Of a stretch of DNA of 64,000 nt, positions 1-54,175 are shown one piece after another. This DNA is from Styela clava (lineage: Eukaryota; Chordata; Ascidiacea; Stolidobranchia; Styelidae). Location: the NCBI RefSeq assembly GCF_964204865.1, contig NC_135262.1:13020001-13084000 (forward strand), in the 5' to 3' direction. The notes under the pieces are model-generated. The model ran no database searches, was not told the DNA's origin, and was given only the letters and a program-made list of their open reading frames with translations. Position numbers and translations under genes: made by a program. Position 1 is the stretch's first letter; each line of letters begins with the position of its first letter.

Positions 1-2
1 AA

Positions 3-2325: not shown

Positions 2326-2916
2326 AATCATCAAGTATGCTCGAAAAATAATTTGTCGACTGAAAATCTAATTGAATCAACAATATTGTGAACGATAGTT
2401 CACTGATTAGAAATTTTGAGAAATCGGTTGAACTCGGTACAGTTTATTTACCTTCAAAATCCGTATTTTCGAGATAACGTTCAATTCATACTTACATATC
2501 AACGAATAAACAACTATCAAAAATAGAATTGTACAAAATGATCAATCAAATTTTTTTAATTTGAATCGTTCTTCGTTGAAAGAACTGTTTTGTTATACCC
2601 ACCAGACAATCCACTTCATTTGAAATTCCTCTTGTTAGTTTTTCTGCTATGGAACATAATTTTACAGTAGCCTTAAATCTTTTGTCACGGAATTTTCCAT
2701 GAGAAAACTTCTCAAAAATTGATTTTGTTTCAAATTCAATATGAAAAATTTATCGCGAAAACAATATTCATCTCGCAATGATACGGTGTGATGAAATAGA
2801 AGTTAACTTTATGCATGATACAAAACAATGAAGCTTAATTGTTTAAGCAGTTATTCTTATATAAAAACACATTGCAGATATAAGCAATAGTGCATGCAAT
2901 TTGTGGATTTTTGGTT

Positions 2917-5900
2917 TCACACTTTTTCTTCTGTAATCTTGTGGTTCGTATAACCTCTTCCGTTGTTCGTTTCTGCATGTTCTTTTTCGATGGAAGTCTT
3001 GCAATTTTGACACTTACAGAGAAAAGCGTCATGGATTGGATAGTTCCAGTGATCCGGAAAAAGCATAACACAGAAACCAAGTATTACAAGAAAAGCTGCA
3101 GCGAGCCTTGCAGGACTGAATGTAACACCTTTCACAAAAATGTCAACGACTGAAAAAAAATTCAGCATGAGTGGAAAAATAGTGTTTTTTTTTATAATAG
3201 ATATTAATTCCAGTTCATTTTTATTATGCTTGACAAGTAACTCTGGTAGAGTTTGTTGTATATTCAACTATAAATATATACGCCCTATCGTAATAAATAT
3301 CTACTCTGATAATACAATACGAATAGCATTAAACATTGTTTATTACCTGCGTTGAGCGGGATTCCCAGCATCATTGCAATCGATATAAATAAAGGATACG
3401 TATAAGCCACGCCGAAATTAACAGCAAAGTTGAACACTAAAAGATTGGAACATTCATTAACCTGATAGAAAAATTCAATAGATTTTATATTATCAAGTTA
3501 TTTATTTGAAGTGAGACGTTAAAGTTACTCATGTGCATTAAAGGGATTGAACCACGAAACAAATTAAATTTGTTATATTCTTATATTATGGAGAATGAAT
3601 GGGTATCTGGAAAATCTCTCTTCGTTTCAAATTAAATTTACTTGTTCAATTTTACAATAAGGATGCGAAATAGAATAATCATTATTGAATAAATAAAGTT
3701 ACCCAAAGAAAGAAAGTTCGACGTGGTCAGGTCTGACCATGGTATATCATCCGCTTCAAAGTATTCCACTCCAGTAAAATAAAGAATCAAAAACACGATC
3801 CACATAAAAACTGCGTTGCTGACTCCGAGCAAAGACAGGAAGAGAGAAACTTGCCCCAAATTTGCAGTTCCCAACCACGACTTGAAAATAACCTGTAATA
3901 TAAATTATATATATTTGGGAGCACAAAAGGATTGTGAGGAGTTTCTGAATACTTTATATATAACTGCAATCACATACACTTTTTTTTATAAAACATGAGA
4001 GCAATGGTCAAATGTATAAACACCGAGGCCAGAACGAAATATTTTACCCACAATTTTCCCAAAATCATATCATAAACGAAGCTGAAATTGTGGAATGGCT
4101 ATCGTACGTGGGGCAAATTTACGTGGCATAACAGTTTATACATAACAGTTTTTAATTTGATTACCTCATCGCACACAAACAAACGAATCCCGTGGAGCCC
4201 ACAGAACTTTTTGAAATAAATTGAAGTAATAGCGACCATAACAATCTTTAACCACTGAAAATTTCAATGCAATTGGTTCAGTAGTTAAAATGAAAAGCGA
4301 TTTTTTCACAACAACAAGAAGAATTCTGACAACGACAATGCAACAGCAAAACGATCCTTAGATCCACTTCGTGTCTAATAGAAATCAACACATCTGACGC
4401 TTACCTTGTAAAGCGCTGCTCCAAAAGCAGATATAACTGTCATCATGGTACCTCCCAAAATTCCGGATCCGCCCACGAAACCATCGGCATAGGCAAATAA
4501 TGCAACCCCAGCTATGCAAAAAATGCAGGCAAAAATCTGAGAATAGGAATGTTTTTAGAATAACGCCTTCAGATGCTAAATGATATTATATACACGGACT
4601 AGGTGACAATTCCATTTGGGGTCGTAATAATGAGAGGGTATAAAACAATGACAATTTTTTATTTTTCTAACAGCTTCACAAAATACTGCTACATACCCTT
4701 ATAGCGTAAAGTCTTTCATGAAGAATGCATAACGCCAGCATGTAGACAAAAGCAACATTTGAAGCAAATATGGCAGAAGCATCGGTTGCAGCAATATACT
4801 TCAGGCTGGAAATATACAGGTAATTTGTGGCCAGCCACAACATATTTAAAGGAACAATCTTTAAGAAGAATTGTGTTTTCGATATTTCAGGAGTTTTAAA
4901 CATTCGCGCTGCATCTCTAAATGTAAAAAAAGTATACTAATCACATCTTACTGTGGAATTGTTTTTTTGTTCAGCATTTTCATTTTTTTCGTTATATATT
5001 TTTCATACAAAGTAAATGTCATAACTCTATGGCACACTTTGTTATTGGTCGTGGTACGACTGAACTAACTTTATAAGCAAATTGCAATAATAATTTATAA
5101 GTTTTGGACATTTCACAACACGTCCACATTCGAAATATCAGAAAAAAATCGTGTTTATGGAGATTTCAGTTTGATTTGATTTATTCGTATAGAGAAATAT
5201 TCTCTTACTATTACATATGTATATATATAAGTCGCAAAGAATCATACTATAAATCATCATCAATTTTGTAACAGATATTGCCCTCAATTCTTTGCTCTTT
5301 TTTTTAATTTCCGAATATAATTATCCGAGTCTGAAAGATTTATTTTATGATGGGTGTAACCCATTCGCTAAAGCAGAGAACCAATCACCTAAATAAATTT
5401 ATTATTTTTGATTACAAATGTAGTAGGCAGTTTGAAACTATGCCTAAATCTATTATGATAGAAGTAAAGACATGACCCCGAAAGGACATAGCTAAAATAT
5501 TGTTCATGAAAAATGAACATCACCTGAAAGACATTGATATTTCCGCACGGTTCCTGAATTTCAATCCTATAAAAATAGTGTAAGCTGGAAAGCACAAAGT
5601 CATCCAACATGTTCCCATCCAAGTGGTGAAGTAAGGAGCATTGAAGCTGGCAAGCTGCACGGCATTTTGTGCAAATTGTTGCGTCCCAACCCATGAAACC
5701 GCAAGAAATATAACAATGACGCATCCTAAATGAACGTTAAAATCAATATTTGCTACTCGGATAATTTTTAATGTAAGCGCGTGTTGCATCAACACGTTTC
5801 AACAGTTGATTTCTACCAAACCCAATCTAGTAAGAGTGTTCGTTCACTTATTCTTGTTAAAACATATTAAACTTAACAGTTAGCATCATTTCAATGTGTT

Positions 5901-33593: not shown

Positions 33594-36336
33594 CTATTCT
33601 ACATTTACCATCATTTTACACATTTTTGCACGACGTTTTCCATGAGGGGTTTTGGTAGCAGTGCAAGCTTTACAATAACGACACCAAGAAGATACTTGAC
33701 TGTGCATTCTAGCCCAATAAAATCGTTCCCTCAATTTTTTATAAGTTCGTTCTTTACCCAAATGTCCACCAGTACGCAACTCATGGAGTTGTCGGTACAT
33801 TTCGCGACGCAAAACTAAAGGCAACACAATTTGAAAAATGGATTTCCTTACAGGCGCGGATGGCAAAAACTGGCGATGAAGCACTCCATCGATGACTCTC
33901 AATAATTTCCACTGGCTGCACAGGATTTGAACTTCACAGGAGGAAAACAAGATTTCTGCAGCTGGAGGTGATCAGTACTTTAGAGATGTTATCGTCCTTC
34001 ACCTGCATCTCACACATATCGGTCGATGAAAACGAAGCGAGCCATTCCATAGAATTACCATGACTCGGTTGCAAAGCAGCAACTTTGACAGTTTCCAATT
34101 CACACGGCTGATCACCGTTCCCACAACTAGTGCAGGAATCACGCTTACATCGGCGACGAATACGACTCAAACCATCAGCATTGCCATGCTTGGAAACAGC
34201 ACGATGTTCAACTGTAAAATCGTAAGTGTCCAGACCTGATATCCAACGAGCTACAATGCCTTCCGGATCTTTAAAATTCAGAAGCCAACGTAATGAAGCA
34301 TGGTCAGTTCTCAGTTTGAAATGGCGACCCCACAGAAAATGACGAAAATGTTTGACCCCCCCCCCCCCCCCCCCAAACGCAACGCAATAAGTTATCGATA
34401 CGTTGCACAATATCTCTTCTGTGCCTTGTTAAGGGTAACGCTGGCATATGCAATGACTTTTTCCTCGCCATTCTGAATTTGACTTAAAACTGCGCCAGCT
34501 CTAAAACCAGAACAATCAGTATCTAATATGAATTCGTCTCCATCTTCCTGTGGAAATGATAAAACAGGAGCACGAACTAAAAGTTCTTTCAAGCGAAGAA
34601 AAGCGACATCACACTGCTTTGTCCAAGCAAATTCTACAACGTGTGTGCAATGGTAGAAAAATCTTCAACAAATTGTCTGTAATAATCACAAAATTCAAGA
34701 AATGACTGCAATTCTTTGACATTAGCAGGCTTGGGCCAATCACGAACAGCAGCAATTTTTCCATCGCTACAGCTTACACCATATTCAGATATTACATGTC
34801 CCAAATATTCCACTTTACGACTAAAAAGGTTACACTTCTCTGGCTTGAATTTCAGTCCAGCAGCACGAATTCGTAAAAAAACTTCACGTAAACTGCTCAT
34901 GGCCAGATCAAAGTTTTCGCCATAAGACAAAATATCATCTAAAAATGCGAGACATATTTTCCATAGAATTCCAGCCAAAACTTTGTCTATTAAACGCTGG
35001 AAGCAAGATGGCGCATTGGCCAGACCGAAGGCAAGAACAGTGATTATTTTCCTGGCAAGCTGAATGTGTTTTTACCCCATCTTCTGGGTCGAGTTCTACT
35101 TGCCAGTACCCACTCGTCAAGTCCAACGATGAAAACCACTTTGCTTTACCCAATGCATCCAAAATATCATCAATTCTTGGCAAACTGTAGGCATCTTTGA
35201 TGGTTACCAGATTAATTTTACGGAAATCGATACAAAAACGACAACTTCCGTCTTTCTTAGGAACGAGAACAATAGGCGAATTATAGGGATTTTCACTCGG
35301 TTCTATTACACCTTGAGCAAGCATGCTCTGTACTTGTTTCTCTGTGATTTCTCTTTTCGCCCATCCCATACGTCGCGGTGGAACTTTGATTGGTTCAGAT
35401 GTTGACGTTTTAATCTTATGTTTGACTATAGAAGTTCGTCCCAGTTTGCCATCAGGACCAGCAAAAACATCCTGAAATTCAACGAGCAAATCACGAACAC
35501 TTTGACGTTGTTCAATCGTCAAATCTTCTGGATCGTCGACGAGCTTTTTAAATGTTCAGGTAGTTTCCTGGTGTCCATGACATCACCAGGCACCACTTAT
35601 TCCAGAGAAGAGACAGTCAAGTTTTCTCGTGGGCATAGTAAACCGATAAGCAAATCCGCAGGTATTTCTACCGCTTCCTTGCTAACATTGACCACCATGA
35701 GAGACACTAAAGGGCATGGGGCGTCCACCACTCCGGGAAATAAAAATAAACCACGATGGTCATACTCGCTCTCAAACACACACGCAGCCTCTGCCACAGC
35801 TATAACGTCACTATTGGGTTTCCATGGGAAATTCAAACGACCATAAATCACCATCTCACTCTCGCTGGGAACAGTCACACATTTATCTACAACAATGCTA
35901 CAACTAGGAACAGACGAAACAGGCTTAGTCAGGGAAACAGTTTTACCATCAACCTCCATTTGACCTACAGACATATGCAAAACACAGTCATGCTCTTAAT
36001 CCATACCAAGCAAACCATAGGGGCACCAAGATCAGCAATAATCACTCTCTGAACAGCACACACAGAATGAATACAAATTTTCAAGTCAATCATACCACGA
36101 GCTTTCAGAGAAGTACCATTAGCAGTTTGAAAACAAACATCACAAGGAGACAAATCACACACCTCCTCACCAATAGAACAAAAAACTGCATAATCTATGA
36201 GCGTAGCAGCACTACCAGAATCAATAAGAAAAAGTACAGTAATGCCATTAACTTCAACCATAGCATACCAGTTAGTGGGTAATCTCAAAGAACAAATCAA
36301 ATTATCAAAATCATGGTCCATGCATACATTCGTCAT
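33594..36336 (-). pseudogene. Gypsy pol: protease, reverse transcriptase, RNase H, integrase zinc region
   Basis: From 36336 downwards: an aspartic protease with LFLIDSGSAATLID, then a reverse transcriptase at 35522-34935 with FCIDFRKIN and WFSSLDLTSGYWQVELD. The catalytic motif near 34945 is FLDD in place of the usual YLDD. RNase H follows with LDTDCSGFRAGAVLSQ (34592-34392, resuming at 34320). The integrase zinc-binding H-H-C-C region (GGHLGKERTYKKLRERFYW, then CRYCKAC) ends at about 33600. Frames change at about 34980, at 34610 and at a 20-base C-run near 34357. The integrase DDE core is absent. Confidence 0.88.
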
Positions 36337-36339
36337 CTT

Positions 36340-36738
36340 TCCAGTAGCAACCGAGGACCCCCGTGCTACTGATTTCTGTTTAATAAAGGCATATCATTAT
36401 TCTTGGGAGCAGGGTGAAACTGGGGAATATTCCCACCGTCACGAGGAGTTTGGCCATTCCCACCCCAGGCAGAATTTGAGCTATTCCCTTGGGAAAAATT
36501 TCCTACAGGGCCACTGACCGTTTGCTGGGCCGAATAAGCAGAAGGCTGCGAATTCTGTGGAACATAATATCTATCACACTGAGAAGCTATATGACCCCTG
36601 CCATTACATATCTGGCACAGGTTCTCCGGACAATTCCTACGTATGTGACCCTTGGCACCACAACCATAGCAAGTAATAACTTCATTCCTACGCCCACCCT
36701 TCTGACGGGAGAATCGGGGTTGATGACCTTTGTCAAAC
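36340..36738 (-). pseudogene. Gypsy gag C-terminus with zinc knuckles
   Basis: The minus strand encodes CYGCGAKGHIRRNC and then CQICNGRGHIASQC, two CCHC knuckles, followed by a Gln/Asn/Gly-rich tail. It is the in-frame continuation of the gag segment that stops at 40498; the P/THAP-type insertion between them copied the 7-mer GTCAAAC. Confidence 0.85.
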
Positions 36739-39700
36739 CAATGACATTAAACAACATGATGCGCAACTCCGGCATTTTTGGCCGAAGATCGTATCCGATA
36801 GCACGCTCCAATGCACATACTTGACGAGACGAAAACGAGCGAATGTGTGCTTCTTTCAAGGCATAGCACGAATGGTGTTCGTGCCTGCTTTGACAGTTGT
36901 TGTCGATTTTAATGATATATTGGAAAATTGAAGGTAAAAAGAAATCGGAAAAAAGTAAGGTAAATACTATTGTTGTATATCACACTCGGGCATCGCACTG
37001 TTAAGTACATGTGGGAAAGCCAGCTTTTGTCAAATACTACGAAGTTATTAAATCAGTACGGTACGTAGTTGCCCATTTGCCGAAATTGCTTATTTACTTA
37101 CCCCTTATGGTTTCAAATAGTTCATACACCTCCATTTCGATTTTTTTTAATCAGTGAGGATATATACTCATTGCTGTAACATACTATTGCTCATTCACTT
37201 TTATTTGCGTATTGAATCAAAGGGTTAACAAGTTCACCTAACATTTCACTCATACCGGTCTATATTGTATAGTCTGATCTCTCAAGTATTTGGAGCCACC
37301 GATGCTTGTAATTTTCTGTCTAAACCCCTTTATTAGTTGGTTTATATACCAAATTCAGTAAAACATTTTTTACATAAAACATGAGATATTGGATTTATTA
37401 GCTTTTCCAATCTAAATCATATAGACTGCTTTATTTATTCTTAACGAAAATTATTGAATCTCCTCTCTTTTTTCAGATGTGAAAGTTTTGGAAAAACCTG
37501 TCTAAGCATTGTGGGACTCCTACAGCACAAGAGGCAATAGCAAAAATAGTAAGTATATCAATCAAGAAATTAAGCCGACATAAAGCAAAACTTTTAACTA
37601 TTCGTCCAACCTCAATTTCCTAATATTTATTCACAGGACAACTGTAGCAGAAGGGGATATTTCAGAAGTCTGGCGACATATCAGTGACAGTGTGATTCCA
37701 AGAAATACAATCAGAATACTCCATAAATGTTTGCAATAGAAGAACAACCTATGGAGGCATGCAAAGACATTTGAACCTCCGGTAGAGTTGTGTATGGCCC
37801 CTACATCCCGCAGGGCTTGAGGAAAATAACTAAAAATTCCGAAGCGTAAGATTGCATAAGCGGTCTTCTTTGTAAAAAGGCACAAAACATGCCAGACATA
37901 CTTAAAACAGCTTTGGAAAATGAGGATTATGGGTCGGTCACTCACTACACCTGTGTTATATTTGATTCATCAACTTTTGGTAGTACTAAAGAAGAAATTC
38001 AGGAAAGGGTATAATCATGATTCATGATAAAATACTGTTATATATTTTGGACAACTTCAATCTAGACCAGGGATATCAAACTCGCGGCCTCAGAGAACTT
38101 CCAGTGAGGCCCTCGAACGCTTAACAATAATTGTAATAGTATTTTGGAGTTTTTTTTTTATCTAAGTGTAATAGATTTTTCAACCTTTTTGAAGTGAAAT
38201 TGAATATTCACACAGAAAGCAATTTACCAAAAGTAGTTTTGGAAAATTAATTTTTTTTGTTCACATTTTGACCCAATTAAGAATACACATCAAGCTAGCA
38301 AAAGAATACTTGAATAAAACACTTGAGTGAATAAATTAAACGCAAAGTACATGAAGAAGGTGGCATTTTCGAAGAAAATGGGAGTTGCAATATTTCTGCA
38401 TTTCACAAAATTTTGAAGCACATTGTTTAATTTGTCATATTTCCATCAGTACAATGAAAAACACATTAAGCTCAGCAGTCAATACGACAATTTTGAAGAC
38501 CAACTTCGAACAGAAAATTTTCATGTGTTTGTATATTAATATAAATATACAACGACTTAGTTACTAAAAATCAATATCAATAATAATTCAAGCAATCCTA
38601 TGCTATGCAATGTGGCGCGAAATGTCTTGTCGAAAATATCTGTCATTTGTTTTTCTACTGATCTATTCATGAAATGATAAAAGTAACTTTTTTGCATTAC
38701 TGGAATTAATTAAACATTCGCAAAGTTCCAGATTAACCCATGATCATGTGACCTCGTTAGTTAGAGTTGGTACCATAAAATCATTTCAGCCTGGCCTTAG
38801 TATGCTGGTGACACAAAGAGATGCCAAACGTCAGGACAAATGTAATTAAAAAAACATTGAGTTTATACTGTAGTATTTTTGTTAATTTTAAGTCCATATA
38901 TTTAGATTAAGTCATTTTTAGTGTATGTATTATTCTTTCCTTATCCAAAGCTTGTTCAAAAATGATTTTGATGGTTGTATAAAGAATTTTATGATTTTTT
39001 GTAATAAATACAGTAACTTACAATAATAGTGGAATGCAAATATTAATATGTAATTGCATTTGAAATTAAAGAAAATAATAAAACTTAATCAACTGTTTAG
39101 TTGCATCACAATATATGTCACAAACTAAATCTTTCTGAAAAACATACCTTTCAAGTATACATTATCAAAAAGTGTTTTCGGTCCTTTTTACAATTTCCAA
39201 AATGCAATGCGGCTCTCGAAAATCCATGCGTTTGACACCACTGATCTATTCTAGACAATTCAAGCATTGCTTTTGGAAATAATATCACTTCAATTAAATT
39301 GAAAAAAATCTCGCTACATAAATACAAAATCGTTGCTATCATAAAGGTAAACCAATTCAGCAATTCTTTGTCTTGAACTTTTCATACTCCACAGCCCCTA
39401 TTAATTTTTTTTTAATTTTAATTATCATGTGATGGCCATACATATCTTTAACTTGTATTTTCTGTCATGATGTATTATCTCAATGTGTCAAACCGTAGTA
39501 GTATATATTTACGGTCAAACTTTTAATTAGTGTGCATATTTTGCTTCCAGTAGACATAAATGTACAGTATTGTCTTGTTTATTACCTCAGCTTGGAGTAT
39601 TGACAAGAAAAAGGTGCCCGTAAAACTCTTTGTTATAATCAGAATTCACAATTAATAGGAATCATAAACAGCCAACATTCAATGAGAATTATATGCCAAA

Positions 39701-40497
39701 TCCCTCAGAATAAATTTGTCTTCTAAAATCGGAGGAAGGCAAAACATATAGGTAGTTTCCATTCATACAAGCCTTTCAAGAAGACTTACTCGAGCCAAAC
39801 TAAATGAGCATCGTCAGATGATCGGTAAGGCTGCAAGTTGAATCAGCCCTGCAACCTCCCGCATAGAAGATATTAATTAGTGGGCTATGAACTAAATTCC
39901 TACATTTAGACACAAACCTATCTACGAGGCATTATGTACCAGCAATGTTACCTACGGTTAACTAAATATGTAATTATGTCTAATAAATTAACCTACTAAA
40001 GCAAGTTCGATAGGTGCAAACTAGTGTTATGGAATTGTATCACAGCACCGTTAAGAGAAGTAAAAACAGTTTTGCTGTTTTGTATGACACTCTCTTTAAA
40101 TGAAATTTCAATGTTTTCCAACATTAATATTACTAACTTTGAACTTTGTCATTATCTGCAAAATGTTCCACAAAATCTTTACGCTATCGCGTTTGTAATC
40201 TTCTCTGATAAAAAAAAACGTCTATGATGTCCAGAATTACTCTTTACAGCTTGTCTGCCATTCCAGCTTTCCAATTGAGCAAAACTTCTTAGATATAGAG
40301 ATTATTTTCTTTCGTTACAGGCGCAAAAAGGCAGGCAATACACGTAAAGAAGACGCCGGGTAGCAAAAGCGAGCGGAAAACGGTCGCGAAAGGCGACGAG
40401 AAATATGTGCATTGGAGCGTATCATGAAATACAATCTTTCGCATGTAGTCTTATGGAGTGACGTCAGAGTTGCCTATCATGTTGTTTAATGTCATTG
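36739..40497 (-). mobile_element. P/THAP-superfamily element, 3.76 kb, inserted in gypsy gag
   Basis: The two ends are inverted repeats of about 31 bp starting CAATGACATTAAACAACATG, with two mismatches, flanked by GTCAAAC at 36732-36738 and 40498-40504. The 31-bp repeat length is that of P elements; their target duplication is 8 bp, here 7 exact. Near the right end, on the minus strand, lies a worn THAP zinc-finger exon, clearer in the copy at 51859. No intact transposase is visible. A hAT element (38068-39243) is nested within. Confidence 0.8.
38068..39243. mobile_element. hAT-type element nested inside the P/THAP element
   Basis: The left end is CAGGGATATCAAACTCGCGG and the right end is the complement of CAGTGGTGTCAAACGC. 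Flanking 8-mers ATCTAGAC and ATCTATTC match at six of eight positions. Related ends occur at 54041-54055 and 63095-63112. No transposase is seen. Confidence 0.7.
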
Positions 40498-41096
40498 GTC
40501 AAACATAGCACGAAAACTGTCAAGCATCTCTTTAATATCATTCCGCAGCTTACTAAATTCAGATTCACACACACCATCATCACGGTCAGAATTATTCACA
40601 ACAGCTACCATGGGCTTACTCGCACGATTACAACCAGGTGCACTGTGCGTAGCATCAATAGAATGACAAATATCAGCCACAGTAATTATTTCATCCAAAC
40701 TCTGAGTTTGCCTGATTGTCAAAGTCTTACACATCTCGAAATCAGGAAAACCTGAAATGAAACGCTGCTTAATTAGGCTCTCAAGAGCAATAATATCCAA
40801 AAAAGGATAAGCCTTCCTCGACAATATTCCGTTGGCGTCTCAGGGGCCAACTTCTTCCTGTTATTAAACAGAGTAGCAAAGTATGACTCCTTACCCTCTG
40901 GATAATAACGCTTTTTCAAGTGATTCACTGCAACACTCAAACTGTGTCTATCTGGAAGGGATAATTCATTCAACAAAGACAAAGCCTTCCCACGCATACA
41001 TGCAGTAAAATGAACACCAGCAATTTTATCAGTTTATCCATTACAGGTAGTAATGGATGAAAAATGACACAAATAATCATCCAGACATACCATCGC
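40498..41096 (-). pseudogene. Gypsy gag, middle part
   Basis: The minus-strand frames read GVHFTACMRGKALSLLNELS and KKRYYPEGKESYFATLFNNR, a typical retrotransposon capsid order, then a helical stretch. One stop near 41030 and a shift near 40810 break it. It connects at both sides to gag pieces beyond the two insertions. Confidence 0.8.
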
Positions 41097-43022
41097 CAGG
41101 GATGGCCAATACCGAATAGTTCACTATTTCGAATACATTCGAAATTATTTTTTTCGAATATGAAATTTCGAATACTTCGAAAATAAAATCCACCAATTGA
41201 AGCTTATCTAAATGTATGTAGGAATTTCCATACAATAAGCAAAGGAATAACTGCTATCTACAAGTTACAACCTAGCTATATTACCAGGCATTTCATATTT
41301 CCAGATTATTATGATATATATTTTATATACCAGGAGTCATGTTAACAGAATTAAATTGATACGGCAATATTGGTATCGGTGATGGATTTCAATATTTGCT
41401 CAACACAAAATCATCCTAGTAAAACGCCCATACTTTTAAATACCAACCATTATCTAAATTATTTGCCGATAAGCGGGATAAAGTATGAGTTATTTTTCCG
41501 ACTTGTGACAATTTTTTCGTGAGTACAAAAATGCGAATCAAAAATTATTTATATTCGGGAACTTTACCACACATTTTGAGCCCGCAGATCGCCGTTGTAT
41601 GTTTGAGTAATAATACTTTTATTATTTTATAAATATGAAAATAGGAATCAAAAACTATTTATAATCGGGTGGTTTACCACACATTCTAATTCCACAGATC
41701 GCCGTTGTATTTTGTAAGTACGAAAATAGGAATCAAAAATTAATATTAATCGTGAGTTTGCCGCACAATTTATGTCCACAGATTGCCGTGATATTGTGCT
41801 GAATATAATTAGTTTTTGATTCTTATTTTCGTACTCACGAAAAAATCGTCACAAGTCGGAAAAATAATTTATACTTTATCCCGCATTTTGGGAACTAATT
41901 CGGATAATGGTTGCCATTGGTTTGTAGTTAAAAGTATGGACTTTTTACTAGGATGATTTTGTGCTGCGCAAAATATTCGAATTCCATGACCGATACCACA
42001 ATTTAAAATGCCTTACGGTGTTAATTAAATTCTATTATCATAACTCAAATGTAGGTAAATCGGGCAGTTTACCACACATTTTAAGGCCACAGATCGCCGT
42101 TGCATTTTAGAACTATAATAGTTGATTATTTCGTAAATACGAATCCGAAATTAATTATAATTGGGCCGTCTACCACATATTTCATGTCCACAAATACCCG
42201 TGGTATTTGGTATTAATACTTTCATTATTTCATCAATATGAAAATAGGAATCAATATTTAATAATATCGGTCATTTTACCACACATTTTATGTCCACAGA
42301 TTGTCGATACAACCATGAATTACGTTGAACAGAATTAAATTAATACAGCATGACATTCTAAATGCTGGTACCAGTCATGGATTGGATTATTTTGCGCAAC
42401 AAAAATCATCCTGGTAAAGGGTCGATACTTTTAACTATCGTTATCAAAATTATTTGCCAGAAACAATTTTCTAATAAATCGACTTGTTTTTCCAACTTGT
42501 GACAATTTATTGGATATCGTAACAATTACGGCTATAAATTCCATATTTCCCGGCTAATAAGTCCACATGGCAAATAGGACGATGTCTATTTTTAGCACTC
42601 AAAAAAGGGGGTTTTCCATATAGGCCTCCAATAAGACGGGTAGAAAAATTGTGTTCCTGTTGTTCAGTTATGCTAATATGCGCTAATAATTTTATATGTT
42701 TAGAACCAGATCCTGTTAGTTTGGTAGAATCATACTCACAGAATTAACTATATTTAACAATTGAGAGGTAAATTTAAGTTGTAAAGCGGCAATCATTTTG
42801 GACAACCTATTAACCCGAACGTTGAAATAATTTTGAAATGTGATAAGTACTACACTGTACGTCCACGGGTTATTTCACGGCTGTATTTTCTTGTCCCTGT
42901 CGTGTTCTGCTGAATCGGCAAAACGAAAGGGGCACAAATCATAACCGGCCTGCGGTTAAATATCATGATTGGCAGACCCTAAGACCCAAATATAAGGTTA
43001 CACAAATCATGCTTGAGTAATG
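41097..43022. mobile_element. hAT copy A of the composite (right end missing)
   Basis: It aligns along its length with 47575-49285. It stops just after ATGCTTGAGTA, where copy B runs on for a further 430 bp to its right terminus. DCAF10 3' sequence begins at the break. The internal array 41560-42310 repeats a unit of about 100 bp (ACCACACATTTTA...CCACAGATCGCCGTTGTAT). Confidence 0.8.
41560..42310. repeat. Internal tandem array of the hAT copy, about 100-bp unit
   Basis: Repeated phrases are TTTACCACACATTTTA, CCACAGATCGCCGTTGTAT and ATACGAAAATAGGAATCAAA. Several units are inverted or partial. A shorter version lies at 48045-48510 in copy B. Confidence 0.75.
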
Positions 43023-43155
43023 AGTACTTAATGTAATAACCTCATACTAAAGATGCAAAAATGTTTTATTTCAAAAAATAAACCAAGCATCTGATTATAT
43101 ACAGAACCAAGATGGGATTAATTTTTGACGAGACAAAATTCAAACATTGCATTAC

Positions 43156-46100
43156 TTAATAAGTAACGGAAATAAAGCCATAGACAACCTTGTCGAAGGC
43201 ACCAATGCAATGTAAAAGTATTGCTGAGTTATTCGGATGAACATCGATGGAGTGACCAACAATATCATCACCATACATATCTAAAACAGGAGATCCACAC
43301 CCTCTATAGCGATCAATTTGATTGCGTCTGAAAGAAAAAATATGACAAGATGTTGTATACCTACAATCGCAAAAAAAATGTTTTTATTCATACTAAGTCT
43401 GCTGTTTCCGGAATCTCACATTAGTTATGTTTGACTGGAACAGTGCCTTATTTCCTTATACTAATATTAATTATTAATGTTGATTGATGAGTTCATATTT
43501 ATGACTGATTCAATAAAGTGAAAAATAATTATAAAACATTACCAGAGCATGTACTACAAACATGTATTGCACCACTTATTCTAATTTGGGCATTCATCAA
43601 AACTATAGCTAAAACTATTTAATAGCAACCGTTTGAATATTTTATGACAAAACATATTTGAACATTCTCACCAGTCCACACATGCCTAAATTCAAACACT
43701 CTGAAATCAGGTAAACTCTGGTCAATGCTGAGATTGCTGTAAGAAGTTTCTACGCATACAGGCTCTTAATTTAAATTAATAATCCGTACCATATTGACAA
43801 TAATCATATTGGATTTGATAATTTTCTAATATAACCAGCAATTTATCTGGTATCTCTGGAGACAATGACAAACTGCATGTTTAATGAAGTATAACAAAAC
43901 ACCTTGTGACAGGCTTCGTCTGTGTCAAATGATTGAATGAAGGAATTGTTCTCTTCTTTGTGATTAAACCCAGAAAATCATTTTCAGCTCTTATGAAACC
44001 GATATCATCTTCTATAGACGATAACTGCATATGAACATAAAGTTGATGAGTTACAATAAGACTTCTAACCAAAGCATGTACACGACTGCAGGACTATGAT
44101 GGAATATAAGATAATCATAGTGTGCATGCGTTCAATCAGAATTTCCCAGACGGCTGCATTGAAGAATGATGGGCGCTCCAGAAGTGTGTATACCAATATT
44201 ATGGAGGTAACTAATTTTGTTCTCCCACTTTACATCAAGTTTTGTAAATGGACTGAAACCTATGGGAAGGGGGTATATTCATTTGGCTAACACAGACAGT
44301 CACCGAACTCAATAGAACTAAAATAGAGGGAAAATCGGACTAAAATTATGGCCAAACCTAACCTGGTACACACAATACAGGAGTACCGAAGAATGTGTGC
44401 GAGTGAGATAGAAACTTCTATATTATTTTTGAAAACACGAACAGCCATATTCAATGGTCCGGATATAAGAATGCATTATTGTACTACAATTTTTGATTTG
44501 GACACCCTTTGTTAATAACGATCTCAGATTCAAATACCAATCATGCTACCGTACCAGAATGTAAAAATTCGGTGGGCATTGCAAGACTGAAATAGATTCT
44601 GTTCCTTGCGTATTGGTGTCTGTCCATACAGAGACTTGTTTAGAGTTTAAATGAAAACACCTAGATTCATAAAAATGAAAATGAAAAAGCAAATGAAGCA
44701 ATAGACTACAGAACAACTGAGCAATCTAAACTTACATCTAAATTATTAATTCCGATAACTTCATGAAATGTTGAACTTGACAAGTAAAGGTTGTCACCAG
44801 CAGGAGATAATCTTATTCTCAATAAACCTCCAACAGTTAACAATACTCTAGTTTCAACATTTTCATCATCCTTCACACTGATAAAAACAACAAGTTCATT
44901 CGATTATTTACTAATAAAATTGTGATGACATTTATTAGTTCTGTGACTTAATTTTACCAGTAAAAAACCTACTTCTAACATTTTGATTCGAAATATTGAA
45001 AAAGGTCCGAAATCTTGAAAATGTTTCTAGCTGGAATAACACATACTAAAATATTTAATTATATTGAATGATGACTGGAATTGAGTGCATGTGAGGTGAC
45101 AGTAGAATGAAAGGCTATGCAAGCCCATGAGAGTTCAACCTATACTTCACTTACATGGATGACAGAGAAATGAATATAATTCATTAAAAAGGGCAAATTA
45201 AAAGTCTAACCATCTTAGCATTCCAGATTTTAGTTCTCGAGTCAAGCATTCGCTATAACACTTGGCATAAAAGTGGTTAGTTTAAGCTTGCTCTAATTGT
45301 GACAATCCTGTATGTTTAAATGGATTCCTGTCTAGGATGTGATCAGTAAGTAAGTCTTGACTTTAGTCAAAAATTTGACAGGATAAAATTAGCAAAAATG
45401 AGATAAAAAACCTTATTTAAAAAACCTAATTAATATCATGTTAAACTGTAATATATCATATTAATAATCGAGAAGATATGCTACAGAAAAGTTTTTCAAA
45501 TTCTCAAAGTTCAAACTACAGATATAAATATTGAAAATGAACGCTCACTTATTAATGTCCCATACTCGTATTGTGTCATCGAATCCTGAGGAAACAAGTT
45601 GTTTAGATGGTTGATGGAATTCAATATTTTTAACCCATGAAGTATGACCTCTTAACCGAAAAACTTCCTACAAAACAATTATTTATCCTTATGGATATAT
45701 ATACAATAGTCTTCTCTGTGCTAATTTATACTTTACAAGGTACCAATTTCATGGTAAAGAAATGACTACCATGCCCATTTTCGTTGGAACAGGTGTTGTA
45801 AATGTTGTGTCAACATCCTGGTACATAATGTTAGGCACATACCCTAAATCATTATCTAAAACTGTTTCAGCTACTTTAAACAAATATTCTTTTTGAAAGA
45901 AATAGGGATTTTTTTCCATTGCACCAAGCAGTGCCATATTTCTCAAAAAGTGCAAATTACTTGAGTTGCGACAGGTTAAAATGTGTTCAATATGTCCAGT
46001 CGTATATAAAACCAAAAAAAGCTGTACAAAATATGCGAAACAAAACTTATTTTTTAGCTCCTTTCGAGGTCTGCTCTGAACTGAATTCAAAGATTGAAAT

Positions 46101-47277
46101 TTTTGTGGAAGTAGGTAACCTTACAAATGGAAAACCTTTTTAAAATTGCGAAGATCCCAAACTGCAATGGTGTGATCATCAGAGCAAGAAGCAAACATTT
46201 TCTCGTCCATGAATAAAATATTGTTGACGCAATCACTAAAAATTAATTAACAGTATATGTATATCAGCAGGATTTGTAAAAAAAACTGGAAAAACATCTG
46301 TGGCGAGTAAGAATTGTATATAATAATTTTAGCATTGGTCTTTTCATATTTATTCCTAAGAGGAGAAACTATAAAATGACATTACAAACCAAATTACTGG
46401 GCCACATACAGCTTTGGTTTTGAATTATAGAAATAGAATTATGAATACATGGAATTAAAGAATCCAGTAATGCACTAGTACAGAGGTCGGGAACATCTGC
46501 CTCGCGAGCCATATATGGCTCTTTTGGTGACGTATGACATATGGCTCCCAGAAAAATCCAGGATTCTAAGGCTAAGCTTATTATTGTTTCAAACTCTTTA
46601 CAGCCAAATTTAGCAGAAAATGCGCCAATACATTTGATGTCTAAGTTATCTAAAAGAATCACCAGACAGGCATTGTAACAAAACTAGAGGATCATGGAAC
46701 ATATTTTGTTACATCACGAAGCGATAGAGTAGCGGAGCAATAGAATAAAGCTTCTCGTTTATTTGTACGTACTAGTTATAGTATTTGTCATATTTGAATC
46801 GGGACTAGCAAAGCTAGATTTTAAAATAGTACGAAGATGCCTAAACGAAAGAAGGGTGATGAGTATCGTAGATTTCAACTTGTGCTGCATGTGAGCAACC
46901 GTTCAAGGCCCGCAGCCACAACATGCAGCATCAGAAATCACATTAGGTAAATGTATATTGACATGTGTTAACTCTTGAGTGAAAATTGCAGACCTTTTAA
47001 GTGAAGAAATGCTATATGGCTCGCATGGAAATGTATTCAAAAATATGTACCTTTTATGGCTTTCTTGACCAAAAAGGTTCCCGACCCCTGCTCTAGGATA
47101 TAATTCAAACCTGAACCATTACGATTCCAATCACATGTTCAACCCACAAGGATTAAATAAACAAACTTTAGGAAATGTAATTACCGATGAGCATCCTGTT
47201 TGTGTTGCAGAACCTTATTAGTCATCGGATCTATCAAAACAACACTATTGTGCTCACATGCTGCAACCAGCAACTGC
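43156..47277 (-). CDS. DCAF10: DCAF10 (WDR32) gene fragment, six exons, captured inside hAT composite
   Basis: Exons on the minus strand are 47277-47185, 46235-46136, 45667-45549, 44877-44736, 44024-43903 and 43327-43156. They are all in phase, about 249 codons. DCAF10 is a WD40 substrate receptor for the CUL4-DDB1 ubiquitin ligase. Its marks here are [56 protein letters not shown] and [14 protein letters not shown], all close to human DCAF10, then a variable middle. The first coding exon is absent, and the reading ends (TY, stop) about 150 residues short of the human C-terminus. AATAAA (minus strand) lies at 43065-43070. Exon 2 has a weak donor (GTTTTC); all others are good. There is no premature stop. 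Because it lies within a transposon it is probably a duplicate, not the main gene, and may be non-functional. An assembly misjoin is the other explanation. Confidence 0.8.
44169..44356. repeat. 190-bp repeat, copy 1 (in DCAF10 intron)
   Basis: It begins GGGCGCTCCAGAAG and ends near ACTAAAATTATGG. A direct copy lies at 47387-47566, abutting hAT copy B. It is probably a MITE or relic whose ends I cannot define. Confidence 0.7.
46481..47090. mobile_element. hAT MITE in DCAF10 intron (MPKRK-type transposase start)
   Basis: The termini CAGAGGTCGGGAAC and GTTCCCGACCCCTG are inverted repeats. Flanks CACTAGTA and CTCTAGGA agree at six of eight positions. Inside, on the plus strand, ATG at about 46836 opens [14 protein letters not shown], the typical N-terminus of hAT transposases of this type, which breaks off soon. 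The element is a deletion derivative. Confidence 0.78.
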
Positions 47278-47386
47278 CTGAAAAATATTTCAAATTTTGT
47301 ATGAATTTATACAAATTTTCCTTAGTTGTTATTGTGGAACGTCTGAATCCTTTGTAAATCAATATTTTGGTTCCACACGCAAATTT

Positions 47387-47566
47387 GGGCGCTCCAGAAG
47401 TATGTGTATAATATGGAGGTAACTAATTTTGTTTTTCTATTTTACATCAAGTTGTGTGAAGGGACTGCAACCTACGGGCATGAAAAGGAGATATTCACTT
47501 GGCTAACACATACAGTCCCCGAACTCGTAATAGAACTAAAATAAAGGAAATCGAAATAAAATTATG
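47387..47566. repeat. 190-bp repeat, copy 2
   Basis: This direct copy of 44169-44356 lies between the first retained DCAF10 exon and the left end of hAT copy B. Confidence 0.7.
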
Positions 47567-47574
47567 GCGTAAGC

Positions 47575-49714
47575 CAGGGATGGCCAATACCGAATAGTTC
47601 ACTATTTCGAATACATTCGAAATTATTATTTTCGAATATGAAATTTCGAATACTTCGAAAATAAAATCCAGTAATAGAATCTAAGTGTATGAAGGAATTT
47701 TCATACAATAAACAATGGAATAACTTCTATCTACAACCTGGCTATATTACCAGGCATTTCATGTTTGCAGATTATTGCGATATATATTTTAAATAACATG
47801 AGTTGTATTAATTAACAGAATTAAAATAATACGACAAGGCATTTTAAATAGTGGTATCGGTGATGGATTTGAATGCTTGCGCAACACAAAATCATCCTAG
47901 TAAAACGCCCATACTTTTAAATACCAACCATTATCCAAATTATTTGTCAAAAAACGGGATAAAGTATGAGTTCTTTTTCAGACTTGTGACAATTTTTTTG
48001 TGAGTACAAAAATACGGATCAAAAAGTAAATATATTCGGGAACTTTACCACACATTTTAAGTCCGCAGATCGCCGTTGTATGTTTGTGTAATAATACTTT
48101 TATTATTTTATAAATACGAAAATAGGGTTCAAAAACTATTTATAATCGGGTAGTTTACCACACATTTAATGTCCACAGATCACCGTTGTATTTTGTGAAT
48201 ACGAAAATAGGAATCAAAAATTAATATCAATCGCGAGTTTGCCTCACAATTTATGTCCACAGAATGCCGTGATATTGTGCCCGAATATAATTAATTTTTG
48301 ATTCTTATTTTCGTACTCGAAAAAATTGTCACAAGTCGGAAAAATAATTTATACTTTATTACACATTCAAGTCCACAAATCGCCGTTGTATTTTTGAGTT
48401 ATAATAGTTTTAATATTTTGTAAATAAGAATCCGAAATTAATTATAATTGGGCAGTTTACCACACATTTCATGCCCACAAATACCCGTGGTATTTGGTAT
48501 TAATACTTTCATTATCGATACTTTTGACCATCATTATCAAAATTATTTTCCAGAAAGCGGGTGAAAGTATTTTTCTAATAAATCAACTTGTTTCCCAACT
48601 TGTGACAATTTATTGGATATCGTAACAATTACGGCTATAAATACCGTATTTCCCGGCTAATAAGCCTACATGGCAAATAGGACGATGTATATTTTTAGCA
48701 CTAGGTTTAGGTTTCCCATATAGGCCTCCAAGAAGACGGGTAGAAAAATTATTCCCTGTTGTTCAGTTATGCTAATATGCGCTAATAATAATGTTTAGAA
48801 CCAGATCACGTTTGTTTAGTAGAATCATACTCACAGAATAAACTATTTTTAACAATAAAGCGGTAATTTTAAGTTAAAAATCACAATCATTTTGAACAAT
48901 CTATAATTTTATAGGGTCAGAACAGAACCAGATCATGTTTGTTTGGTAGAACCATACTCACGTAATTAACTATTCTCAACAACGAAGCGGTAAATTTAAA
49001 TTATAAAGCGGCTATCATTTTGGACAACCTATCAATCCGAATGTTGAAATAATTTTGGAATGTGATAAGTACCACACTGTACGTCCACGAGTTATTTCAC
49101 AGCTGTGTTTCATGTCCCTGTCGTTTTCTGCTGAATCGGCAAAACCAAAGGGTCATAAATCACTTACTTTATCGCGGTGGCCGTGTTTTCTCTTTTAAGT
49201 AACGATAACCGGCCTACGATTAAATATCATGATTGGCAGACCCATAAGAACCAAATATAAGGTTTAACACAAATTATGCTTGAGTAGACTAATGCGAAAA
49301 ATAACAGGCCACATAGAAATAAAATGAACATGCTTTCTCAATAAGGCGCCCCTCCCCCCAAAAAATCAAGCCAAAATTGGGTCTAGAAAAGCGACTTATT
49401 AGCCGGGAAATACGGTGATTGTCGATTTTTCGACTAATGGAAATGATTTTGTGAATTAAAAGACGAATGTCGGCAATGTCCACCAACGCAAACGTGCAAA
49501 TGTGTCGCAACACTATGCGACGTACATTCGCGCTGAATATAAACAATCAAAAGGCCGACTCATCGTCATTCAATACATTCCGGTAAAACGAAACACCGTG
49601 TTTACGGCGAAAAGTGACTACTATTCGTAATTATTCGGAAATGAGCCGAAAAGGTATTCGAATACCTTGATATTCGAATAATTTCGAATATTCGATTCGT
49701 TTTGGACAACCCTG
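47575..49714. mobile_element. hAT copy B of the composite (both ends present)
   Basis: It starts CAGGGATGGCCAATACCG, as copy A does, and ends TTGGACAACCCTG. The region next to each end is rich in TTCGAATA palindromes. The 8 bp to its left do not match ACCATCGC on its right, so it did not insert here on its own. Confidence 0.82.
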
Positions 49715-49722
49715 ACCATCGC

Positions 49723-50276
49723 CATTAAAAGTATCAGGCTGGATATCCACTCTCATGCTATTAATCATACCAAAAGGAACTGCCTTGCAATCAGTAACGT
49801 TACCATTCACACTTGCATGCATAGGTGTGGACTGGTCAACCACACACTCATCAGCAAAATTCAATTTTTTAATAGTACCGGTACCTTCTACCAAACATTC
49901 CTTACCAGGGTGGTCAAGTTTACCATTTTTATCAACACACTTGGGCATCTCAGGGGTTTTTAAAATAGGTTCAGGAATAAATGATGGCACTTCACCCTCA
50001 GCCATGGCCTCGTCAATGCTCTCTAGACGGCATACAACCCGTTCGAGTACTTCCTTCATGCCAAAATCTCTTTCTTCAAGTTGTATAACACTGATCTTGG
50101 CTACTTTCAGTTGAGACAAAGCATCTTGCAGTTGTCTAGCCAGTTCTTTATTTTCAGCTTCCAGATTTATTTGCCACTAGTACCGGTATGTCTTTATTCA
50201 TGTTTTCCATCTGGGCAATTTTAACCCATATTACATCTCGTTCCTGGTCGCAATTCTTTCTTCGGTGTGACATCAT
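49723..50276 (-). pseudogene. Gypsy gag, N-terminal part
   Basis: The frame starts at a double ATG (50276) as MMSHRRKNCDQERD. It then shifts frame in a CCGGTA stretch near 50185 and continues ENKELARQLQDALSQLKVAK to DIQPDTFNGDG at the hAT insertion. It has a coiled-coil character. Capsid sequence follows on the far side of the composite. Confidence 0.75.
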
Positions 50277-51858: not shown

Positions 51859-54175
51859 CAATGACATTAAACAACATGATAGGCAACTCTGACGTCACTC
51901 CATAAGACTATACGCAAAAGATTGTATTTCATGATACGCTTCAATGCACATAGTTATCGTCGCCTTTCGAGACCGTTTCCCGTTCGCTTTTGCTACTCGG
52001 CGCCTTCTTTACGTGTAGTTGCCTTTTTGCGCCTGTGACGAAAGAAAATAATCATTATATCTTAGAAGTTTTGCTCACTTGGAAAGCTGGAATGGCAGAC
52101 AAGCTAGCTGTATAGAGTAATTCTGGACATCATAGACGTTTTTATTTTATCAGAGAAGATTACAAACGCGATAGTGTAAAGATTTGTGTGGAACATTTTG
52201 CAGATAATGACAAAGTTCAAAGTTACTAGTTTTAATGTTTGTACCTATACATTGAAATTTTATTTAAAGAGGGGGGGCTTACAAAACAGCAAGACTGTTT
52301 ATACTTCTCTTAACGGTGCTGTGATACAATTCCATAACACAAAGTTTGCACCAATCGAACTTGCTTTAGTAGGTGATTTTATTAGACATATTACATATTC
52401 AGTTTATCGTAGGTAACATTGATGGTACATAATGCCTCGTAGATATGTTTGTGTCTAAATTTAGCTCATAGCCCACTAATTAATATTATCGTCTATGCAG
52501 GAGGTTGCAGGGCTGAATTCAACTTGCAGCCTTACCGATCACCTGATGATGCTCATTTAGTTTGGCTCGAGCAAGTCTTCTTGAAAGACTTGTGTGAATT
52601 GAAACTACCTATATCTTTTGCCTTCCTCCGATTTTAGAAGACATATTTAATCTGAGGAATTTTGCATATAGTTCTCATTGATTGTTGGCTGTTTATATTT
52701 CCTATTAATTGTGAATTCTGATTATAACAAATAGTTAAAAAAAATTTTTACGTAATTTACTGGCACCTTTTTCTTGTCAATACTCCAAGCTGAGGTAATA
52801 AACAAGACAATACACCTGGAAGCAAAATATGCACACTAATTAAAAGTTTGACACATTGAGATAATACATCGCGACAGCAAATACAAGTTACAATACAAGT
52901 CATACATACAATATGCCGCATCGCATTTTGGAAATTGTAAAAAGGGCCGCAAACAGTTTTTGATAATGTATACTTAAAAGATATTTTTAAGATAGTTTTG
53001 GTTCATATATTGTGATGCAATTAAACAGTTGGATAAAGTTCTATTATTTTCTCTAATTTCAAATGCAATTACATATTAATATTTGCATTCCACTATTATT
53101 GCAAGTTACTGTATTTATTACAAAAAAATCATAAAATTCTATGTACAACCATCAAAATCATTTTTGAACAAGCTTTGGATAAGGAAAGAATAATAAATAC
53201 ACTAAGAATGACTTAATCTAAATATATGGACCTAAAATTAACAAAAATACTATAGTATAAACTCAATGTTTACTCAATTACATTTGTCCTGACGTTTGGC
53301 ATCTTTTTTGTGCCACCAGCATACTAAGGCCAGGCTGAAATGATTTTATAGTACCAACTCTTATAGTAACTAACGAGGTCACATGATCATGGGTTAATAT
53401 GGATCTGTGAGAGTGTTTAATTAATTCCAGTAATGCAAGAAAGCGTATAGATCATTAAACAAACAAATGACAGATTTTTTTGACAAGAAATTTTGCGCCA
53501 CATTGCGTGGCATTGAGTTGCTTGAATAATTGTTGATATTGATTTTTAGTAAACTAAGTCGTTGTATAATTATATTAATATACAAACACATGGGAATTTT
53601 CTGTTCGAAGTTGGTCTTTGAATTTGTCATATTGACTGCTGAGTTTATTGTGTTATTTCATTGTACTGATGGAAATATGACAAAACAAAAACAATGTGCT
53701 TCAGAATTTTGAGAAATGCAGAAATATTGTAAATCCCATTTTTCTTCGAAAATGCCACCTTCTTCATGTACTTTGCGTTTAATTTATCCACTCAAATGTT
53801 TTATTCAAGTATTCTTTTGCTAGCTTGATGTGTAAATTCTTAATTGGGTCAAAATGTAAACAAAAAACAAAATTAATTTTTCAAAACTACTTTCAGTAAA
53901 TTGTTTTTTGCGTGAATAATCAATTTCACTTTAAAAAATTGGAAAAATCTTTTACATTTAGATAGAAAAAAACTTTCAAAAAACTATTACTATTATTGTT
54001 TAGCGTTCGAGGGCCGCACTGGAAGTTCTCTGGGGCCGCGAGTTTGACATCCCTGGGTATATTGAAGTTGTCCAAAATATTGAACAGTATTTTATCATGA
54101 ATCATGATTATACCCTTCCCTGAATTTCTTCTATAGTACTACCAAAATTTGATGGAACCAATTGTAACACAGGTG
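51859..54175 (+). mobile_element. P/THAP-type element, second copy, inverted relative to the first
   Basis: It starts with the same CAATGACATTAAACAACATG terminus and follows the first copy, inverted, as far as the point equivalent to 37945. The rest of the element and its other terminus are missing. It also carries the nested hAT, whose end TTTGACATCCCTG is at 54043-54055. At 52137-52226 it encodes KICVEHFADNDKV, the C-terminal CxxH part of a THAP zinc finger, stopped by TAG. Confidence 0.75.
52137..52229 (+). pseudogene. THAP zinc-finger remnant
   Basis: Thirty open codons read RFYFIREDYKRDSVKICVEH then FADNDK, matching the IC-x-x-HF end of THAP domains, which bind DNA in P-type transposases. 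The first two cysteines are not identified in frame. A stop follows. Confidence 0.55.

Follow-up and report, generated by a model that had tools for sequence, protein, structure and literature searches.

The analysed window is a 64-kb stretch of the 376.6-Mb Styela clava genome (C17:13020001-13084000), and it contains an 8,618-bp composite unit (window positions 41097-49714) that bears hAT termini at both ends and is flanked on either side by the 8-mer ACCATCGC. From left to right, the unit consists of a truncated non-autonomous hAT element on the plus strand (hATL), a piece of a multi-exon host gene lying on the minus strand and a complete non-autonomous hAT element on the plus strand (hATR). 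The 8-mer occurs twice in the window, at 41089-41096 and 49715-49722. The presence of at least two copies anywhere in the window is not rare (15 of 100 shuffles), whereas the agreement of eight out of eight positions at two fixed places has a chance probability of about 3e-5. Both copies abut exact hAT-like ends, CAGGGATGGCC starting at 41097 and GACAACCCTG running up to 49714, and the terminal inverted repeats (TIRs) were CAGGGATGGCCAA and CAGGGTTGTCCAA. Short TIRs of this kind are typical of the hAT superfamily. The duplication is found only outside the pair: the outermost ends on both sides are intact and adjoin ACCATCGC, the two hATs are in direct orientation, and the inner flanks, ATGAGTAC and GCGTAAGC, do not match. 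A first-pass annotation of this DNA had described a hAT composite enclosing host exons between identical 8-mers, and both the composite and the 8-bp target-site duplication (TSD) around it were confirmed.

The unit interrupts a minus-strand repeat, read as the gag of an LTR retrotransposon, whose part 3' of the insertion spans 40773-41096 and whose part 5' of the insertion spans 49715-50176. The two flanks were queried separately against the genome. For the left flank, 26 of the 31 other matches were used, the remaining five falling short of the junction, and for the right flank 28 of the 35 other matches were used, the remaining seven starting away from it. The flanks were joined over exactly one 8-mer in 25 of the 26 junction-reaching related matches, and the left TSD copy occupies this single place; in the one remaining match the flanks were 5 bp off, with the left match stopping early, at 319 of 324. 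The right TSD copy was assigned by sequence and flank comparison. The relatives of the repeat are thus uninterrupted and have one place for the 8-mer, indicating that 8,618 bp and an 8-bp duplication were added to the copy in the window. Pfam analysis of an 86-aa frame of the interrupted repeat returned no match; a zinc knuckle and an aspartyl protease were recognised by Pfam on the same strand at 35965-36746. Of the annotated insertion into a retrotransposon gag, the interruption of a repeat that is empty in 25 of 26 relatives was upheld, but the gag identity received no Pfam support from the 86-aa frame.

hATL (41097-43019) retains an intact left end and is missing about 300 bp at its right end, so that about 1.9 of 2.2 kb is present, as judged by alignment to hATR and to its relatives. 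It aligns with hATR over most of its length but has no counterpart to the final 428 bp of hATR in that alignment. L066, a relative on C1 belonging to the same subfamily, extends about 300 bp past the point at which hATL stops; the right terminus of L066 is itself damaged. At the left inner junction, no clear trace of how the right end of hATL vanished was observed. hATR (47575-49714) is complete by comparison with its full-length relatives. Retrieval with hATR yielded 30 loci, namely hATR itself, two partial copies and 27 other full-length copies, the last group having a mean mutual identity of 97.8%. An exact 8-bp TSD at offset 0 was present in 18 of these 27 relatives, a TSD with an offset or one mismatch in six (L038, L040, L051, L055, L058, L060) and no clear TSD in three (L036, L048, L053). 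hATR, in contrast, has no matching duplication of its own, being flanked by GCGTAAGC on the left and ACCATCGC on the right. Three features that had been annotated at the outset, namely a left hAT copy without its right end, a complete right copy and an inner hAT end without a matching duplication, were therefore all borne out. Over the length of hATL, the identity to the 27 relatives of hATR was 89.9-91.2%, and judged from these values hATL and hATR are different subfamilies and hence not halves of one element. Both elements are classified as hATs by their short TIRs and by 8-bp TSDs, the latter scored on the relatives of hATR. No frames longer than 85 aa were found inside hATL or hATR. Across the genome, the hAT dimerisation domain (PF05699) gave 150 scored matches among 1852 candidates, some of them in frames of more than 600 aa, and a candidate source of transposase is thus plausible.

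The carried gene piece (43020-47574, minus strand) contains six exons with AG/GT borders, which form a single open 248-aa frame on the minus strand when joined. Exon A, the first carried exon (47185-47277), is followed by exons B (46136-46235), C (45549-45667), D (44736-44877), E (43903-44024) and F (43156-43327), the last of which includes the stop codon at 43156-43158. All six were delimited by splice borders and the joined frame, and exons B and C were additionally recognised by Pfam, each as a WD40 repeat. The 3' UTR and flank (43020-43155), with a minus-strand AATAAA at 43065-43070, match the sequence on C18 described below. The carried exons belong to the 3' portion of the gene, and the piece extends through the stop codon into the 3' flank. 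The 248-aa product matched the Pfam WD40 model (PF00400) above its cut-off (E = 4e-14), and matches to other beta-propeller models were below their cut-offs. The gene is tentatively named DCAF10, in agreement with the vertebrate protein of that name. Regarding the six spliced DCAF10 exons of the first-pass annotation, the AG/GT exons, the open frame and the WD40 assignment stand, and the gene name is putative. Its left breakpoint, 43022, was corrected to 43019/43020, and the right one, 47575, was retained at 47574/47575.

A genome search with the gene piece, in which 40 of 6147 candidates were scored, identified one other copy of the whole piece, on C18, and no second copy of the composite; the candidates were mostly copies of an intron repeat, and further partial gene copies could be missed. 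The parental gene is located at C18:19407962-19412527 and shows 98% identity over query positions 1-4550 (98.2% for the whole piece). The next upstream exon (C18:19413187-19413429) is seen on C18 only, splices in frame to exon A and lies about 0.66 kb past the position of the window's right breakpoint, so that the fuller gene is on C18. The gene piece is accordingly not a single-copy gene with its upstream exon beside it, the situation that had been considered incompatible with a mobilised gene. Directly 3' of the C18 gene lies a hAT element of 1,037 bp (C18:19406922-19407958), oriented as hATL. At the left junction, C18 reads CCCTG followed by ACTATGAGTACTT and the window reads GAGTA followed by ATGAGTACTT; comparison of these sequences places the left junction of the window 3 bp from the boundary of the C18 hAT. 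At the right breakpoint, C18 reads GGCGTAACCCTAACC and contains no hAT, which makes it an empty site for hATR. In the window, hATR adjoins intronic sequence of the gene piece, 4.56 kb from hATL. The proposal that a hAT would be present at both breakpoints of the original locus thus held on the left, where the element has the same orientation, but not on the right, where C18 is empty. The C18 hAT has no TSD (left TACTAATT, right ACTATGAG), implying that one side was rearranged and that its insertion history is not fully readable. Neither a second hAT to the left of the C18 copy nor the missing duplication was found within the fetched 30 kb, and a C18 haplotype with both hATs is absent from the assembly.

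The relationship between hATL and the C18 hAT was evaluated using the first 886 bp of hATL as a query. Out of 970 candidates, 39 copies other than hATL were scored, and the C18 hAT ranked first among them with 96% identity and 1445 bits; the runner-up reached 95% and 1377 bits. Over the ungapped 886 bp, hATL was 96.2% identical to the C18 hAT and 94.7-95.2% identical to the next four copies, and the C18 hAT was 94.6-95.5% identical to the same four. A first global alignment of hATL and the C18 hAT had given 85% identity, which was read as a misalignment of internal repeats. The pair has in common 17 alignment sites (15 substitutions and 2 one-base gaps, of unchecked polarity) that are absent from the next four copies; private sites in the same comparison numbered 17 for hATL and 16 for the C18 copy. 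A maximum-likelihood tree of ten copies (hATL, the C18 hAT, the four next-best copies, hATR and three members of the hATR family) recovered the split uniting hATL and the C18 hAT with a support of 100. By a modest margin, these comparisons suggest that hATL and the C18 hAT are kin. Compared with L066, the C18 hAT lacks about 1.2 kb of internal sequence. Interrupted repair after excision commonly yields internal deletions and end losses in such elements.

The divergence between C17 and C18 was uneven along the compared segments. Differences were counted at 34 of 886 sites in the hAT, 9 of 138 in the 3' flank, 23 of 831 in the repeat-bearing stretch at 46270-47100 and 26 of 2,838 in the remaining noncoding part of the gene body. 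The hAT showed no significant difference from the adjacent 3' flank (P = 0.17) but did differ from the gene-body noncoding sequence (P = 4e-8). This unevenness calls for a diverged donor haplotype on the 3' side or for partial gene conversion, either of which would explain it. The exons differed at 3 of 746 sites, with one amino-acid change, as compared with 58 of 3,803 sites for all noncoding sequence (P = 0.013). No selection on the carried exons was detected when they were compared with the 26 of 2,838 gene-body noncoding sites (P = 0.25), and constraint on C18 alone could explain their low divergence (5.7 differences expected, P = 0.18).

The composite is very probably a hAT macrotransposon that arose by end bypass, in which the hATL left end and the hATR right end moved jointly out of a C18 haplotype that lies outside the assembly. 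An intron-containing piece of six exons appears to have been moved from C18 to C17 by two neighbouring hATs acting as one unit, a clear natural example of a mechanism described chiefly in maize. This reading is based on the outer TSD with its exact TIRs and the pre-insertion site seen in 25 of 26 matches, on the C18 gene with a same-strand hAT at its left boundary and an empty hATR site, on the kinship of hATL with that hAT, and on the presence of two nearly complete elements of different subfamilies, with hATR lacking its own TSD. A hAT insertion point at the parental gene accounts for each inner junction, and one of these two points is seen on C18. In the donor haplotype, hATL would have lost its right end, probably through interrupted repair after excision, and a second hAT, hATR, would have inserted into an intron of the gene. 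A putative hAT transposase, supplied in trans as neither element contains a long frame, would have brought the hATL left end together with the hATR right end. Such pairing would skip the lost end of hATL, and the 8.6-kb unit would have moved to C17. The gene may have been retained on C18 because the donor site was restored from a sister or homologous chromosome; alternatively, it may be carried by another haplotype. The observations that speak against macrotransposition are the C18 hAT without a TSD, the modest kinship margin, the uneven divergence, the left inner junction with no clear trace of the end loss and the lack of an assembled haplotype with both hATs.

The first-pass annotation had offered a macrotransposon or a gap-repair product as explanations; the parental locus, its left hAT and the pre-insertion sites favour the former, and the latter is disfavoured because the hATs are of different subfamilies and both nearly complete. 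Under gap filling, a plain hAT at C17 would have undergone a break or excision that was repaired by template switching to C18, so that the element was filled with gene DNA. The finding of one composite copy among the 40 scored candidates is consistent with this, and most single-copy animal Pack-TIRs are attributed to gap filling in PMC8277862. The flanking TE parts of a gap-filled Pack-TIR should, however, belong to one element, whereas hATL and hATR come from different subfamilies and together make up almost two entire elements. Moreover, the inner boundary of hATR is an exact TIR and the left inner junction coincides with the boundary of the hAT at the parental locus; several template switches would be required at just those points, and we consider gap filling improbable. 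Fork template switching that builds a chimera near the donor, which then transposes (FoSTeST), was put forward for multicopy Pack-TIRs in the same paper, and it likewise predicts a TSD around the unit and a copy on a different chromosome. We nonetheless regard it as very unlikely, as there is no second composite copy among the 40 scored candidates and the switch is unnecessary if both hATs were already at the gene, where the left one is indeed seen. FoSTeST shares the final transposition step with macrotransposition and differs in the origin of the donor only. The 98% identity and the repeat-rich nature of the loci could also point to a segmental duplication or an assembly chimera into which the hATs inserted independently afterwards. 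This is hardly credible given the exact outer TIRs with the 8-bp duplication, the flanks that join over a single 8-mer in 25 of 26 relatives and the absence of a separate duplication for hATR; an assembly chimera would not produce the TIR and TSD pattern.

Ac/fAc and Ac/Ds macrotransposons of maize were reportedly described by Huang and Dooner in 2008 and by Wang et al. in 2022. The maize cases resemble macrotransposition at the present locus in that two linked hATs act jointly, their outer ends pair and the inner DNA is carried along. They were observed in lines with Ac, whereas two diverged non-autonomous subfamilies in an animal genome are involved here; also unlike in maize, one element has been deprived of its right end, and the event occurred naturally at an undated time. 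Macrotransposons formed by Ac in maize are well documented, and PMC9910405 describes one of 28 kb that was excised and left a modified 8-bp TSD. End bypass (transduction) is also carried out by P elements in Drosophila, according to PMC8277862. In that system, as here, the transposase takes flanking DNA by using an outer end, but there a downstream sequence accidentally serves as the end, a role that falls to the genuine right terminus of another hAT in the present unit.

The PMC8277862 survey reports 370 Pack-TIRs in 100 animal genomes, 208 of them hAT-associated, which renders the earlier statement of hAT gene capture as a plant matter out of date. Animal Pack-TIRs are similar to the present unit in that host DNA with a known parental copy is found between TIR ends of one superfamily. 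The survey was limited to internal sequences of 100-5,000 bp between two TEs of the same element and left out any parental copy that had a TE within 100 bp on its flanks; according to the authors, end-bypass cases may escape. The C17/C18 locus, with a TE directly at the parental copy, differs from that set and is of the excluded kind. Since parental loci with adjacent TEs are dropped there, such animal cases may be systematically overlooked. A literature search, with most subscription journals outside its reach, found no hAT macrotransposon that arose naturally in an animal and carries several exons of a host gene.

We tentatively suggest, as a possibility rather than an expectation, that a gene-adjacent hAT deprived of one end through abortive repair is immobile alone and becomes gene-carrying, since it can move only with the distal end of the next like-oriented hAT, which may even belong to a different subfamily. 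If true, intron-containing gene pieces would be carried off with their splice sites and poly(A) signal. The unit on C17 has kept the AG/GT borders of six exons, the stop codon and the poly(A) signal, and it could therefore give ready-made 3' exons to a local promoter. On this reading, a pair of diverged non-autonomous hATs can function as a single transposon, apparently in a genome other than a plant's, and the parental locus and the empty insertion site are available in one genome. The locus further draws attention to a type of gene duplication that was excluded by design from one large animal survey (PMC8277862).

The carried gene, a piece comprising six exons of a WD40 gene (43020-47574, minus strand), contains an intronic repeat of approximately 620 bp (46466-47117), which was found in at least 38 other places among the candidates scored, mostly at 74-86% identity. 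The divergence between the C17 copy and the parental copy on C18 was higher within 46270-47100 than across the remaining gene body. A Pfam search with an open frame located in an intron of the same gene piece (45752-46000, minus strand) yielded no match. Another repeat, of approximately 200 bp, was present in two copies (44172-44387 and 47382-47574), both starting near GGGCGCTCCAGAAG; the end of one of them is the point where hATR, the complete non-autonomous hAT copy, joins, and several further copies are carried by C18.

The retrotransposon-like repeat interrupted by the composite insertion is flanked on both sides by the arms of a long inverted repeat (38123-40497 and 51859-54000; 85-98% complementary), which are perhaps two oppositely oriented copies of another element.

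Elsewhere in the assembly, an hATR-family copy at C13:9834100-9838612 was split into two pieces (hATR query 1-938 and 931-2140), with an 80-84% relative between them. The outer element overlaps itself by 8 bp at the split, and this overlap looks like a target-site duplication, i.e., one hAT nested in another. In some full-length relatives of hATR (L038, L040, L055, L058 and L060), the right TIR and the duplication were separated by 1-3 additional bases. Two of these, L055 (C14:16125521) and L058 (C14:16144870), have nearly identical flanks, and this locus is therefore probably itself duplicated.
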